64,000 nt of DNA from Herbaspirillum rubrisubalbicans (GTDB taxonomy: Bacteria > Pseudomonadota > Gammaproteobacteria > Burkholderiales > Burkholderiaceae_D), in the NCBI RefSeq assembly GCF_003719195.1, contig NZ_CP024996.1:4588001-4652000 (forward strand), read 5' to 3'. The position numbers were made by a program, and so were the translations under genes. Below the pieces are notes generated by a model, which saw only the letters and a list, made by a program, of their open reading frames with translations, did not search any database and was not told the origin of the DNA. The first letter of the stretch is position 1; each line of letters opens with the position of its first letter. Below are positions 13,806 to 21,740 of the stretch, in pieces.

Positions 13806-14366
13806 ATGACTAAAATGAAGAGCCTGGTTGCCAAGATCGCTTTTGCTGGCGTCGCCGCCTTTGCCATCCAGTCCCCCAGCTACGCCTTCGGCCTCGACGG
13901 TATGTCGCTGGAATACGGTACCGGCAACAGCACTCAGCTGGCCCGTCTGGGTGCCCAGTTCAACTGGGGTCCGAACTGGAATTTCTGGCAATCCAACGGC
14001 ACCCACATCGGTGGCTACTGGGATCTGTCGCTGGCCAACTGGCGCATGAACCACTACAACAAGACCAATGACAGCGCCAACCTGGTCGATCTGGGCCTGA
14101 CCCCGGTGCTGCGTTTCCAGCGTGACGATGGCAAGGGCTTCTATGGCGAAGCCGGCATCGGCGTGCATCTGTTCTCCAAGCTGTACCGCAACAACGACAA
14201 GGTCTTGTCCACCGCCTTCCAGTTCGGTGACCATGTCGGCGCCGGCTATGTGTTCAGCAATGGCCTGGACCTGGGCATCCGCCTGCAACACTTCTCCAAC
14301 GGCGGTATCAAGGAGCCCAACGGCGGCGTGAACTTTGCCGTGGCGCGTGTGGCCTATAAGTTCTAA
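13806..14366 (+). CDS. pagL: Lipid A 3-O-deacylase PagL
   Basis: 186 residues with a signal peptide (about 1-27, ending SYA) and an outer-membrane barrel of aromatic-capped strands ending in VARVAYKF, the C-terminal Phe typical of outer-membrane proteins. The active-site triplet region QHFSNGGIKEPNGGVN (about residues 161-176) carries the His-x-Ser and nearby Glu used by PagL, which removes the 3-O acyl chain from lipid A. The leader region has a GGACGC/GCGTCC hairpin (13737-13756) and an AT-rich stretch before the start. A pagP homologue lies at 46.6 kb. Confidence 0.85.
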   Translation: MTKMKSLVAKIAFAGVAAFAIQSPSYAFGLDGMSLEYGTGNSTQLARLGAQFNWGPNWNFWQSNGTHIGGYWDLSLANWRMNHYNKTNDSANLVDLGLTPVLRFQRDDGKGFYGEAGIGVHLFSKLYRNNDKVLSTAFQFGDHVGAGYVFSNGLDLGIRLQHFSNGGIKEPNGGVNFAVARVAYKF

Positions 14367-14484: not shown

Positions 14485-15951
14485 TCAGGCGCAGGTAATT
14501 TGCAGATGGTCGATGGCGCAGAAGCCAAGCAAGGCGCGCATTTTTCGCTGTAGCCACTTTTGTACGCTGGCAGAGGCGCTCAAACCGTGTAAAAGCGCGC
14601 GCAAGCGCGCCACCAACAGGGCAATCTTCTTCATGTTCTGGGCCGCCGCCGCCAACAAGCACTGCTCGGCGACCTTGCGCAATCCCCGCATACGGGCATA
14701 ACGATGTCCGTGCAATTGCTTGGCGTCGGCGAAGCTGCGTTCTACCGTTTCCTTGCGTCGGGCATAGATGCGCTTGCCCCATTCGGTACGACGCCGATCA
14801 TCCACCTTCTCCTTGGAACGCTCCCACACATGGCGCGTCACCACCTTGACCGCATTGGCGCTATTGGTGCATTGCTCGCGTACCTTGCAGCCTCGGCATT
14901 GCTCAGGGTTGGATTTGTATTCCCGATACCCCAGTCGATTGGTCGTGCTGTAGCGCAAGGGTTGACCCTGCGGGCAGATGTATTCGTCACGGTAGGCATC
15001 GTACTCATACGCCCGTTTAAAGAATGTCCCCGGCTTGTGGTTGGGTGTGCGGTAGCCCATCACGCCGCTGATCTCGCGATTCTCCAGTCCCTGGCAGACG
15101 GCCGGTGTGAAGTAGCCCGCATCCAGGCCAACGGCCTGTACATCAAATCCGAACGTCTGGCGCTGACGATCCAGGCGTGCCAGATAAGGCTGACTGTCAT
15201 GGACTGAGGCGGGCGTGACATGGGTATCGGTAATGATGGAATGCTTGGCATCGACGGTGCGGTGATCCAGGTAGAAGAAGCCCTTGGGCTTGTCGTCGCG
15301 CACCATGTAGCCGCTCTCGGGATCGGTGCGACTGACCTTGATCTCTTTGGTGGGCGGCTCATCATCGTCGTCACGCTTGAGCGGTTTCTTGCCATGCTCG
15401 GCACGGTCGATATCCACAGCGGCATCCAGTTCGGCCAGATAGGCCGAGGGGGTCTGGGTAACTTGAACGTAGTCGAACTTGTTCTTGTTGGCGTTGGCCT
15501 TGAGGTGGGTGCTGTCGCTGTAGAGCACACGGCCATCGACCATGCCGCGTCCAATGGCCTGGCGCACGATCTCGTCGAAGATCTCTTGATAGACGGTGGT
15601 ATCAATGAAGCGGCGGCGCCGGTTCTGGGAGAAGGTGGATGAGTCCGGTACCTTGTCGGTCAGACGGAATCCGGCAAACCAGCGATAGGCCACATTGACC
15701 TGGACCTCGCGGATGAGCTGGCGCTCGCTGCGGATACCGAAGAGGTAACCGATGAACAAGAGCTTGAAGAGTACCACCGGGTCCAGTGCCGGGCGGCCAT
15801 TGTCGGCGCAATACAGATGCGCCACCTTCTCTCGGATGAACTCGAAATCCACCGCCGCGTCGATCTTGCGCAGCAGGTGGTCCTTGGGCACGAGCATCTC
15901 GATGGTCACCATCTCTAACTCGTGCTGGGCGGCTGTCGGTTTTTTGAGCAT
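14485..15951 (-). CDS. IS1182-family transposase
   Basis: 488 residues, full length for the family. The N-terminal DUF772-like domain (about 20-110: GRPALDPVVLFKLLFIGYLFGIRSERQLIREV) is followed by a DDE nuclease of the IS5/IS1182 superfamily: first Asp in VLYSDSTHLKANANKNK (about 146), second in AVGLDAGYFTPAVC (about 273) and the Glu in RRKETVERSFADAKQLHGHRYAR (about 419). A Cys-rich zinc-ribbon-like insert (YICPQGQPL... CRGCKVREQC) lies near 335-370. No frameshift or stop is seen, so it is probably functional. Confidence 0.93.
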   Translation of the reverse strand: MLKKPTAAQHELEMVTIEMLVPKDHLLRKIDAAVDFEFIREKVAHLYCADNGRPALDPVVLFKLLFIGYLFGIRSERQLIREVQVNVAYRWFAGFRLTDKVPDSSTFSQNRRRRFIDTTVYQEIFDEIVRQAIGRGMVDGRVLYSDSTHLKANANKNKFDYVQVTQTPSAYLAELDAAVDIDRAEHGKKPLKRDDDDEPPTKEIKVSRTDPESGYMVRDDKPKGFFYLDHRTVDAKHSIITDTHVTPASVHDSQPYLARLDRQRQTFGFDVQAVGLDAGYFTPAVCQGLENREISGVMGYRTPNHKPGTFFKRAYEYDAYRDEYICPQGQPLRYSTTNRLGYREYKSNPEQCRGCKVREQCTNSANAVKVVTRHVWERSKEKVDDRRRTEWGKRIYARRKETVERSFADAKQLHGHRYARMRGLRKVAEQCLLAAAAQNMKKIALLVARLRALLHGLSASASVQKWLQRKMRALLGFCAIDHLQITCA

Positions 15952-15965
15952 GACCGATTAAACAA

Positions 15966-15993
15966 CAAAGCCTTGGCTTTCGCCAAGGCTTTG
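15966..15993 (-). terminator. Inward-facing terminator at the right IS end
   Basis: An AAAGCCTTGG stem with its complement around CTTTCG. Read on the minus strand it ends in TTTGTTGTTT just before the transposase start, so it would shield the gene from transcripts entering from the rRNA side. It lies just inside the right terminal repeat. Confidence 0.7.
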
Positions 15994-16022
15994 TCATCAA
16001 TCTGAGCCGGCTTTGCCGGCTT
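15990..16022 (-). repeat. Right terminal inverted repeat of the IS
   Basis: Mirror of the left repeat. On the plus strand the GCCGGCTTTGCCGGC hairpin is directly followed by TTTTTT, giving an outward terminator at the edge of the element. Confidence 0.75.
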
Positions 16023-16108
16023 TTTTATTGTCTGTTAGTTTTGTCGGACTGAGTTGCTTTGGATAGTACGAGGGGGTGGGCTGGAGGGAGGGGTTTAGAT
16101 TTTTCGCC

Positions 16109-16287
16109 TGTGCATAAATTAACTGCGATGCCGGGCGTTGCCTTGGGCTGTGTATAAATCTAAGTACTGGCTTTCAAACATGCCCTTGACATGCGGCTTT
16201 CGAGGGGATTCACGCTCTAAAAACTAAGTACCTTGTGCATAAGGTCAGTTCATTGAGCGCGATGCTGGTTGGGCGAGCTGTGTATAA
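16109..16287 (+). other. Cluster of four DnaA-box matches in a non-coding region
   Basis: TTATNCACA, the DnaA-box consensus, occurs four times in the same orientation (seen on this strand as TGTGNATAA): 16109-16117, 16149-16157, 16234-16242 and 16279-16287. The N alternates C, T, C, T. Boxes 1-2 and 3-4 look like two diverged copies of one module, each with GCGATGC between its boxes (16125-16131, 16259-16265), and CTAAGTAC occurs between the modules twice (after box 2 and before box 3). The whole 16023-16473 stretch has no convincing gene. A DnaA-titrating or reactivating site is possible; nothing shows an origin. Confidence 0.6.
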
Positions 16288-16309
16288 CACCAAGATCGAT
16301 ACTCCCCAC

Positions 16310-16367
16310 CTCTGATATCAGAGCACAGAGGTCAGAGGTCAGAGGTCAGAGGTCAGAGATCATAGGT
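16310..16367. repeat. Palindrome CTCTGATATCAGAG followed by a 7-bp tandem array
   Basis: After the 14-base palindrome (16310-16323) come four exact copies of CAGAGGT (16326-16353) and two variants (16354-16367). The palindrome core is shared with 2579-2591. Confidence 0.9.
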
Positions 16368-16473
16368 CAGCGCCCTGATGTCTGCGCAGAAGTGGGCCGA
16401 CCCGTGCAGATATGTGCCCAAGCACAGTCAGATTCACAATACAAAGCGATCAACATAAAGCGATCGCGCAAAA

Positions 16474-16509
16474 GCAAAAACCCTCGTTACTTTCGTAACG
16501 AGGGTTCTG
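16474..16509 (-). terminator. Terminator of the rRNA operon
   Basis: Perfect 12-bp stem AACCCTCGTTAC with its complement around a GAAA loop. On the minus strand it is followed by TTTGCTTTT. It lies 12 bases beyond the 5S end. Confidence 0.9.
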
Positions 16510-16520
16510 CGGAGTAACAA

Positions 16521-16635
16521 GCCTGACGATGACCTACTTTCACACTGGTTGCAGCACTATCATCGGCGCGAAGTCGTTTCACGGTCCTGTTCGGGATGGG
16601 AAGGGGTGGTACCAACTTGCTATAGTCATCAGGCA
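16521..16635 (-). rRNA. rrf: 5S ribosomal RNA
   Basis: On the minus strand it starts TGCCTGATGACTATAGCAAG and includes the conserved CCCATCCCGAACAGG loop; the two ends pair (TGCCTGA/ TCAGGCT-type helix). Last gene of the operon. End coordinates are estimated from the helix and may be off by a few bases. Confidence 0.93.
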
Positions 16636-16770
16636 TAACTTGTAAAGCCAGTTGCTCTCGATGGAGCAGCAACTAACCCAAACTGGAAGAAGTATTTAGA
16701 TTCTAGGGTGTGATGCACTAGGGCAAACACAATATATGCTCAACTTGTCTATAACAGAGCTAATGTTATA

Positions 16771-19642
<2,872 letters not shown>

Positions 19643-19928: not shown

Positions 19929-20004
19929 TGGTGGAGGTTGACGGGATCGAACCGACGACCCCCTGCTTGCAAAGCAGGTGCTCTCCCAGCTGAGCTAAAC
20001 CCCC
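19929..20004 (-). tRNA. tRNA-Ala (anticodon TGC)
   Basis: 76 bases with encoded CCA. The acceptor GGGGGTT pairs with AACCTCC, the anticodon loop reads CTTTGCAAG and the T-loop GGTTCGATCC. Lies in the rRNA spacer, 7 bases downstream of tRNA-Ile. Confidence 0.98.
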
Positions 20005-20011
20005 GAAACCT

Positions 20012-20088
20012 TGGTGGGTCTGGTTGGGCTCGAACCAACGACCCCCGCGTTATCAACACGGTGCTCTAACCAGCTGAGCTACAGACCC
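20012..20088 (-). tRNA. tRNA-Ile (anticodon GAT)
   Basis: 77 bases with encoded CCA. Starts GGGTCTGTAGCTCAGCTGG; anticodon loop TTGATAA; T-loop GGTTCGAGCC. Standard member of the 16S-23S spacer. Confidence 0.98.

Positions 20089-20204: not shown

Positions 20205-21740
<1,536 letters not shown>

Follow-up and report, generated by a model that had tools for sequence, protein, structure and literature searches.

How bacteria tie the initiation of replication to growth rate is a long-standing question, and it is raised by a short stretch of non-coding DNA in which DnaA boxes stand in a row behind an rRNA (rrn) operon. What are such boxes for, and do they belong to any of the DnaA-binding loci already known? 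The window, which is the whole 64-kb stretch of DNA analysed, covers positions 4,588,001-4,652,000 of a single-contig 5,617,593-bp Herbaspirillum genome. Its relevant part reads, in order, as a minus-strand rrn operon, two terminator-like hairpins, a 7-bp repeat tract, four boxes, a convergent terminator, an insertion sequence (IS) and a pagL-like gene. Throughout, an 'exact' box is a match to TTATNCACA and a 'relaxed' box a match to TTNTNCACA, and in rrn flanks both were scanned over the 800 bp that follow the 5S gene. The features are as follows, in window coordinates.

20208-21740, minus strand, 16S rRNA gene (RF00177)
19929-20088, minus strand, tRNA-Ala(TGC) and tRNA-Ile(GAT) genes, between 16S and 23S
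16770-19641, minus strand, 23S rRNA gene (RF02541)
16521-16633, minus strand, 5S rRNA gene (RF00001)
16477-16508, minus strand, rrn intrinsic terminator, 14-pair stem and T run (consensus scan)
16446-16467, minus strand, second terminator-like hairpin 3' of the rrn operon (consensus match only)
16311-16380, no strand assigned, 7-bp tandem repeat tract (TCAGAGG) between the terminators and the array
16279-16287, minus strand, DnaA box 1, TTATACACA, exact match to TTATNCACA, nearest to the 5S gene
16234-16242, minus strand, DnaA box 2, TTATGCACA, exact match, 45 bp on from box 1
16149-16157, minus strand, DnaA box 3, TTATACACA, exact match, 130 bp from box 1
16109-16117, minus strand, DnaA box 4, TTATGCACA, exact match, 170 bp from box 1
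16004-16022, plus strand, convergent terminator facing the array, CCGGC hairpin and T run (consensus scan)
14485-15951, minus strand, IS transposase gene (DDE; PF13751, PF05598) between pagL and the array
13806-14366, plus strand, pagL-like lipid A deacylase gene (PF09411), convergent with the rrn operon, used as syntenic anchor

The first-pass annotation of this DNA had reported four same-orientation DnaA-box matches at 16109-16287, between an IS and an rRNA operon. Both points are borne out: the four sites are exact and on the minus strand, and the flanks are confirmed as a DDE transposase gene (PF13751/PF05598) on one side and rRNA genes on the other. The array contains the only exact matches in the 64-kb window, dinucleotide shuffles of the 64 kb (n=100) yield a mean of 0.65 matches and at least four anywhere in the window in 1/100, and no second 180-bp stretch with four same-strand exact boxes occurs in the whole 5.6-Mb chromosome, which has 80 exact boxes in total. 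The heptamer GCGATGC, noticed between the boxes, is indeed present in the window but is not conserved across the alignment of orthologous relatives; it therefore looks incidental and was rejected as a part of the motif. The single orientation had been given without its relation to rrn transcription, and that relation is the key property: all four boxes are directed along rrn transcription.

An alignment of 12 flanks, from congeners and from paralogous loci, shows strong conservation of the terminator at 16477-16508; in several congeners, a hairpin similar to the convergent one separates the array from convergent pagL (alignment, by eye). Homologous pagL reading frames adjoin the orthologous arrays, and the IS is absent between array and pagL in the orthologous aligned flanks (by eye). 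Other candidate functions were rejected. Promoter regulation of a neighbour is argued against by zero sigma-70 promoter matches in 15950-16640 (this concerns the window's flank only) and by the convergence of the neighbours, found at three rrn loci (pagL, efflux-lipoprotein-like and sensor-like). A structured RNA is argued against by the folding of the array RNA, no better than that of shuffles (z -1.07), and by the Rfam search at gathering scores, which returned rRNA and tRNA only in the window. A secondary origin was set aside as unlikely, given the lack of a TAGTAG element, as judged by eye, and the enclosure of the array between terminators; GC content of the flank is 0.50 over 600 bp. Six further sites listed for the chromosome carry short tracts akin to the TCAGAGG repeat.

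Are the boxes kept by selection? In an alignment of six orthologous flanks sharing the pagL neighbour, mean identity is 0.94 at the eight fixed box bases, 0.58 at the free fifth base and 0.61 at 263 other positions (spacers). The value of 0.94 is conservative, because two orthologues no longer have box 2 and the alignment of one row fails at box 3. The six rows read A, T, T, A, G and G at the fifth base of box 1, with the other eight bases invariant; box 2 is exact in three rows, TTGTCCACA in one and lost in two; box 3 is exact in five rows of six, the sixth being the misaligned one; and at box 4 the eight fixed bases are invariant in all six. This contrast of fixed bases with base 5 and spacers is the pattern predicted by selection for DnaA binding and not by simple shared ancestry, and the sites thus have the properties of a DnaA box, namely TTATNCACA with a free fifth base kept by selection. 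The DnaA proteins of Herbaspirillum and E. coli show no difference across ARPRQ and GGRDHTTVLHA, two stretches that hold box-contacting residues. A search for the boxes in close relatives with the same rRNA flank had been suggested as a check on the original claim; once run, it found them kept in the orthologous flanks, and the claim survives. Over 23 flanks, consecutive relaxed boxes are never closer than 37 and most often 40 apart, with 38/63 distances within 37-47; no phasing to the ~10.5 bp helical repeat is found (R about 0.23), and helical phasing of the boxes was rejected. G follows the box in 75/86 cases, and a lead-in (CTTAG, CTAAG, CCTAA or TTAAT) stands ahead of 27/86 boxes.

Similar arrays follow the terminal rrn operons of one Herbaspirillum clade and form a family to which this one belongs. 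Among the array-clade genomes, five are complete or near-complete (G000, G044, G019 and G024, one contig each, and G008, six contigs). They contain 15 5S genes, three of which have no box and, from their spacing, are internal copies within tandem operons. At least one exact forward box is found in all 12 terminal flanks of these genomes, where box direction relative to rrn transcription is 27 forward to 1 reverse for exact and 43 to 1 for relaxed boxes. With drafts included, 26 clade flanks (one of 204 bp being left out as short) give 62 to 2 exact and 84 to 3 relaxed boxes, against a Markov expectation of 0.24 exact and 1.97 relaxed per strand, and 23/26 have an exact and 24/26 a relaxed forward box; this larger set is not an unbiased sample, because eight of its flanks were found by a search for box pairs (two of G041, three of G045, G010, G012_C90 and G011_C11). 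The G045 contigs start at an rrn terminator, those of G041 end a few tens of bases before one, and G012_C90 and G011_C11 were assigned as rrn flanks via neighbour genes. G013_C388 and G018_C90 have no forward box of either kind, and G010_C8 has relaxed forward boxes only, with no exact one within 800 bp.

Several arrays are present per genome, not a single locus, and the largest comprise seven relaxed boxes. They occur at three or more rrn loci, distinguished by a pagL, an efflux outer-membrane lipoprotein-like or a sensor-like neighbour (the last two named by eye). In the four single-contig array genomes they stand behind rrn operons of the origin-proximal half, and in the genome studied here they lie 0.09, 0.55 and 1.0 Mb from dnaA. 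In the related second rrn flank of this genome (552,232-553,938; L012, L091), box 2 is interrupted by an insertion of ~1.3 kb that is bordered by a 4-bp GCAC repeat. Across 34 genus genomes, 32 same-strand box pairs with a gap of 27-37 bp were found, 27 of them in flanks read as rrn and five outside (in G005, G007, G010 contig 40, G014 and G021), compared with 0 for the reversed control pattern in the same 34 genomes. That most examined rrn operons of one Herbaspirillum branch bear 3' rows of likely DnaA sites, all aligned with rrn transcription, suggests a link of ribosome making to the start of replication.

In the flanks examined beyond this clade the arrangement was not found. No exact box and one forward plus one reverse relaxed box are found in 18 other flanks of the genus (at least 300 bp; two shorter ones left out), one of which, the 363-bp flank of G021, belongs to a genome inside the array branch of the DnaA tree. 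The result is the same (0 exact, 1 + 1 relaxed) in 23 flanks from other genera of the family, four of 27 having been left out as short. Within the genome studied here, no exact box occurs in ~1.5 kb upstream of the three 16S genes. In the DnaA gene tree of 30 genomes, the 11 array genomes are split from the nine array-free ones by a single branch with support 97/96. The remaining 10 genomes are unlabelled; three of these, G003 (flank of 273 bp), G007 and G021 (363 bp, no box), fall on the array side with too little flank sequence to judge. G018 has an array, gave no DnaA hit and is absent from the tree. Such a boundary between presence and absence within one genus, with DnaA otherwise similar, amounts to a natural experiment.

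In a wider search for box pairs, 24/399 genomes of the order were positive, two of them Herbaspirillum, and no rRNA motif was found at the 23 non-Herbaspirillum pair loci (L131-L153, up to 1.5 kb each side). Among 35 stretches in named genomes, four are from Herbaspirillum (two with 23S/16S motifs and two being the G041 contigs), and the remaining 31 show no 23S/16S motif. Four scaffolds assigned to Modestobacter, Solirubrobacter and two Blastococcus (L164, L168, L169 and L173) have box series at the same 68/40-bp spacing; these short scaffolds possibly represent a shared plasmid or contaminant.

Which known arrangement comes closest? In E. coli, the box behind asnC (TTTTCCACA, one mismatch) stands ~20 bases past the asnC end and points along asnC transcription; the ~850 bases scanned there contain two further hits, of which one, within asnC, shares this direction and the other, an exact box beyond mioC, is opposite. 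Schaefer and Messer (1988, 1989) are credited with the observation that RNA polymerase is stopped, in one orientation, by DnaA bound close to the terminator of asnC. Kasho et al. 2024 (PMC10950094) cite these authors for the asnC block. The Herbaspirillum boxes likewise point along upstream transcription, and all four boxes of the window lie downstream of a transcription unit in the active orientation, 'active' being defined from the native asnC arrangement and one cited title. However, the asnC box is found behind a protein gene near oriC, whereas the Herbaspirillum arrays stand behind rRNA operons.

The second parallel is datA, a non-coding DnaA-box cluster directly downstream of a stable-RNA operon, the glyVXY tRNA operon. 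Both of its exact boxes are directed along tRNA transcription and, of its four one-mismatch boxes, one points along glyVXY and three are opposite. The array of the window is similarly a cluster of boxes (four exact) in non-coding DNA away from oriC, ~1.0 Mb from dnaA. According to Kasho et al. 2024 (PMC10950094), read-through from the tRNA operon upstream rises moderately when DnaA box 2 of datA is substituted, the block by this box is dispensable for the cell-cycle oscillation of read-through, and read-through governs IHF binding. In contrast to the several rrn-linked arrays of Herbaspirillum, datA is a single locus with an IHF site needed for function, and it is tRNA-linked, whereas in this Herbaspirillum genome no exact box occurs within 1 kb downstream of the 58 tRNA hits, a set that includes six located in rrn operons. 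The Herbaspirillum arrays also suggest that the position of datA behind a tRNA operon may be no accident of E. coli.

Because the arrays join a stable-RNA operon, terminators and same-direction boxes, the best reading is a polar block with read-through-tied holding of DnaA. It is proposed tentatively, with slightly less than even odds, that the array is a selected, polar set of putative DnaA sites at the rrn 3' end that would block read-through and also hold and release DnaA. DnaA would bind the array and, once bound, would form an orientation-specific block to RNA polymerase passing the rrn terminators, as at the E. coli asnC terminator box. Since polymerase and DnaA would compete, the array would hold or release DnaA according to rrn read-through, as at datA, and ribosome synthesis would thereby be coupled to the DnaA supply of oriC. 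What the sequences establish is how the arrays are built, their polarity, their conservation and their range in the phylogeny; DnaA binding, blocking and an effect on initiation we infer.

Some observations temper this proposal. In the complete genomes, forks (their direction deduced from the distance to dnaA) and rrn transcription are co-directional at all these operons, so that the polarity could relate to forks instead. According to PMC11317965, E. coli DnaA in vivo favours box pairs 2-3 bp apart; the closest relaxed boxes in the arrays are 37 bp apart (more degenerate partners fall outside the scan), and binding could therefore be weak. Moreover, a second block may be redundant because the rrn terminator already looks strong. 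Further points against the proposal are the lack of helical phasing, the three opposing one-mismatch boxes at datA, the dispensability of datA box 2 for the oscillation of read-through, and the three of 26 clade flanks without an exact forward box.

A stronger version, in which the arrays are a dedicated rRNA-replication coupling device, with DnaA controlling rrn read-through and rrn transcription setting how much DnaA is free for oriC, is doubtful but worth stating: if it were true, initiation would follow ribosome synthesis directly. No published link of DnaA boxes to rrn 3' flanks was found in the open-access literature. The placement of DnaA sites behind rrn operons is real, selected and, as far as that literature shows, undescribed; if DnaA sites are kept in one orientation by selection behind the transcription units that respond most to growth, a direct physical tie between growth and initiation becomes testable.

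Could the arrays do no more than bind DnaA close to oriC and buffer it, as a titration sink that doubles early in the cycle with transcription uninvolved? Their position in the origin-proximal half (at the three distances from dnaA given above), the good consensus match of boxes of the TTATRCACAG form, and the location of 62 of the genome's 80 exact boxes in the half surrounding dnaA agree with such a role. A sink, however, needs neither a single orientation nor a post-terminator placement, leaving the 27:1 polarity unexplained, and the arrays make up few of the ~80 exact boxes; we regard this explanation as rather unlikely.

Distinctly less plausible is that DnaA has no part at all, the boxes being sites of a different factor that recognises this 9-mer, or else drifting remnants of tandem repeats that exchange of rrn flanks has spread. 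Such flanks do exchange, since those at 552 kb and 4604 kb in this genome match over two pieces, at 92% and 99%, and the lead-in before 27/86 boxes exceeds a plain DnaA box. Yet the box bases are fixed while the spacers diverge, the relaxed boxes share the orientation, and arrays occur at three or more rrn loci with differing neighbours.

The first-pass annotation had inferred a DnaA-binding locus of the datA or DARS kind near an rRNA operon. The comparison upholds a selected, non-coding box locus and gives the datA/DARS kind little support, given the absent IHF consensus, the several arrays and the polarity. A catalytic site of that type, which would alter the nucleotide state of DnaA and respond to rrn read-through in the way that datA responds to read-through of its tRNA operon, is quite improbable. 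It would fit the E. coli precedent, as datA lies directly behind a stable-RNA operon with two exact boxes in the operon direction. However, the IHF consensus WATCAANNNNTTR is absent from 800 bp of the window's flank by consensus scan (a degenerate site could remain), so that the array shows no match to an IHF site such as those of datA and DARS2; the consensus is absent from 19/21 clade flanks, this one included, and present in 2/21; also, arrays are several per genome. DARS1 and DARS2 resemble the array as non-coding DnaA-box clusters outside oriC. DARS2 differs in being bound by IHF and Fis, and it regenerates ATP-DnaA (PMC10950094).

A separate locus with boxes and IHF sites also argues against the array as a datA/DARS-type site. 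In the hemE-priA intergenic region (L027:1492-2052, genome 5,095,991-5,096,551; orthologues L248-L253), which resembles DARS2 more than the array does, four or five exact boxes, mostly in one orientation, are accompanied by IHF consensus sites (AATCAANNNNTTR), two in six genomes and one in G023. The layout is similar in 7/7 genomes examined, three array-bearing and four array-free; hemE and priA were identified as neighbours in G000, both transcribed from the minus strand. Judged from sequence, this locus is a strong candidate for the datA/DARS counterpart and a better one than the array, which would leave the latter partly asnC- or datA-like and not datA itself. The hemE-priA boxes may control priA. 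In G014, a congener outside the array clade in which no 5S gene was found, contig 44 (L254:2274-2905) has five IHF-like sites alternating with five same-strand DnaA boxes over 630 bp.

Finally, an RNA signal, with DnaA binding UUAUNCACA in the read-through transcript and influencing termination, would be expected to show strict strand polarity and has a precedent in the DnaA-RNA attenuation model proposed for the his operon (PMC10989985), but it is the least credible explanation, as the same report states that a DnaA-RNA interaction was not found in vitro, the array RNA folds no better than shuffles, and the freedom of base 5 is a known DNA specificity.

Two other DnaA-box loci of the chromosome were noticed. 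The probable oriC (L028:2400-3600, genome 5,610.4-5,611.6 kb) consists of two lobes ~7 kb from dnaA, flanking a short ferredoxin-like gene (named by eye); in both lobes a TAGTAGTAG stretch accompanies TTATCCACA boxes that are inverted and separated by 158 bp. It shares DnaA boxes with the array but differs from it by mixed box orientations and by its TAGTAGTAG stretches, absent from the array (by eye). At L030:1129-1149 (genome 1,610,128-1,610,148), TTATCCACA and TTATGCACA form a tandem with 3 bp between them, and the spacing is equal in G044 and G019. The two boxes follow a reading frame that, by eye, looks LysR-like; this pair is of the close type favoured by E. coli DnaA.
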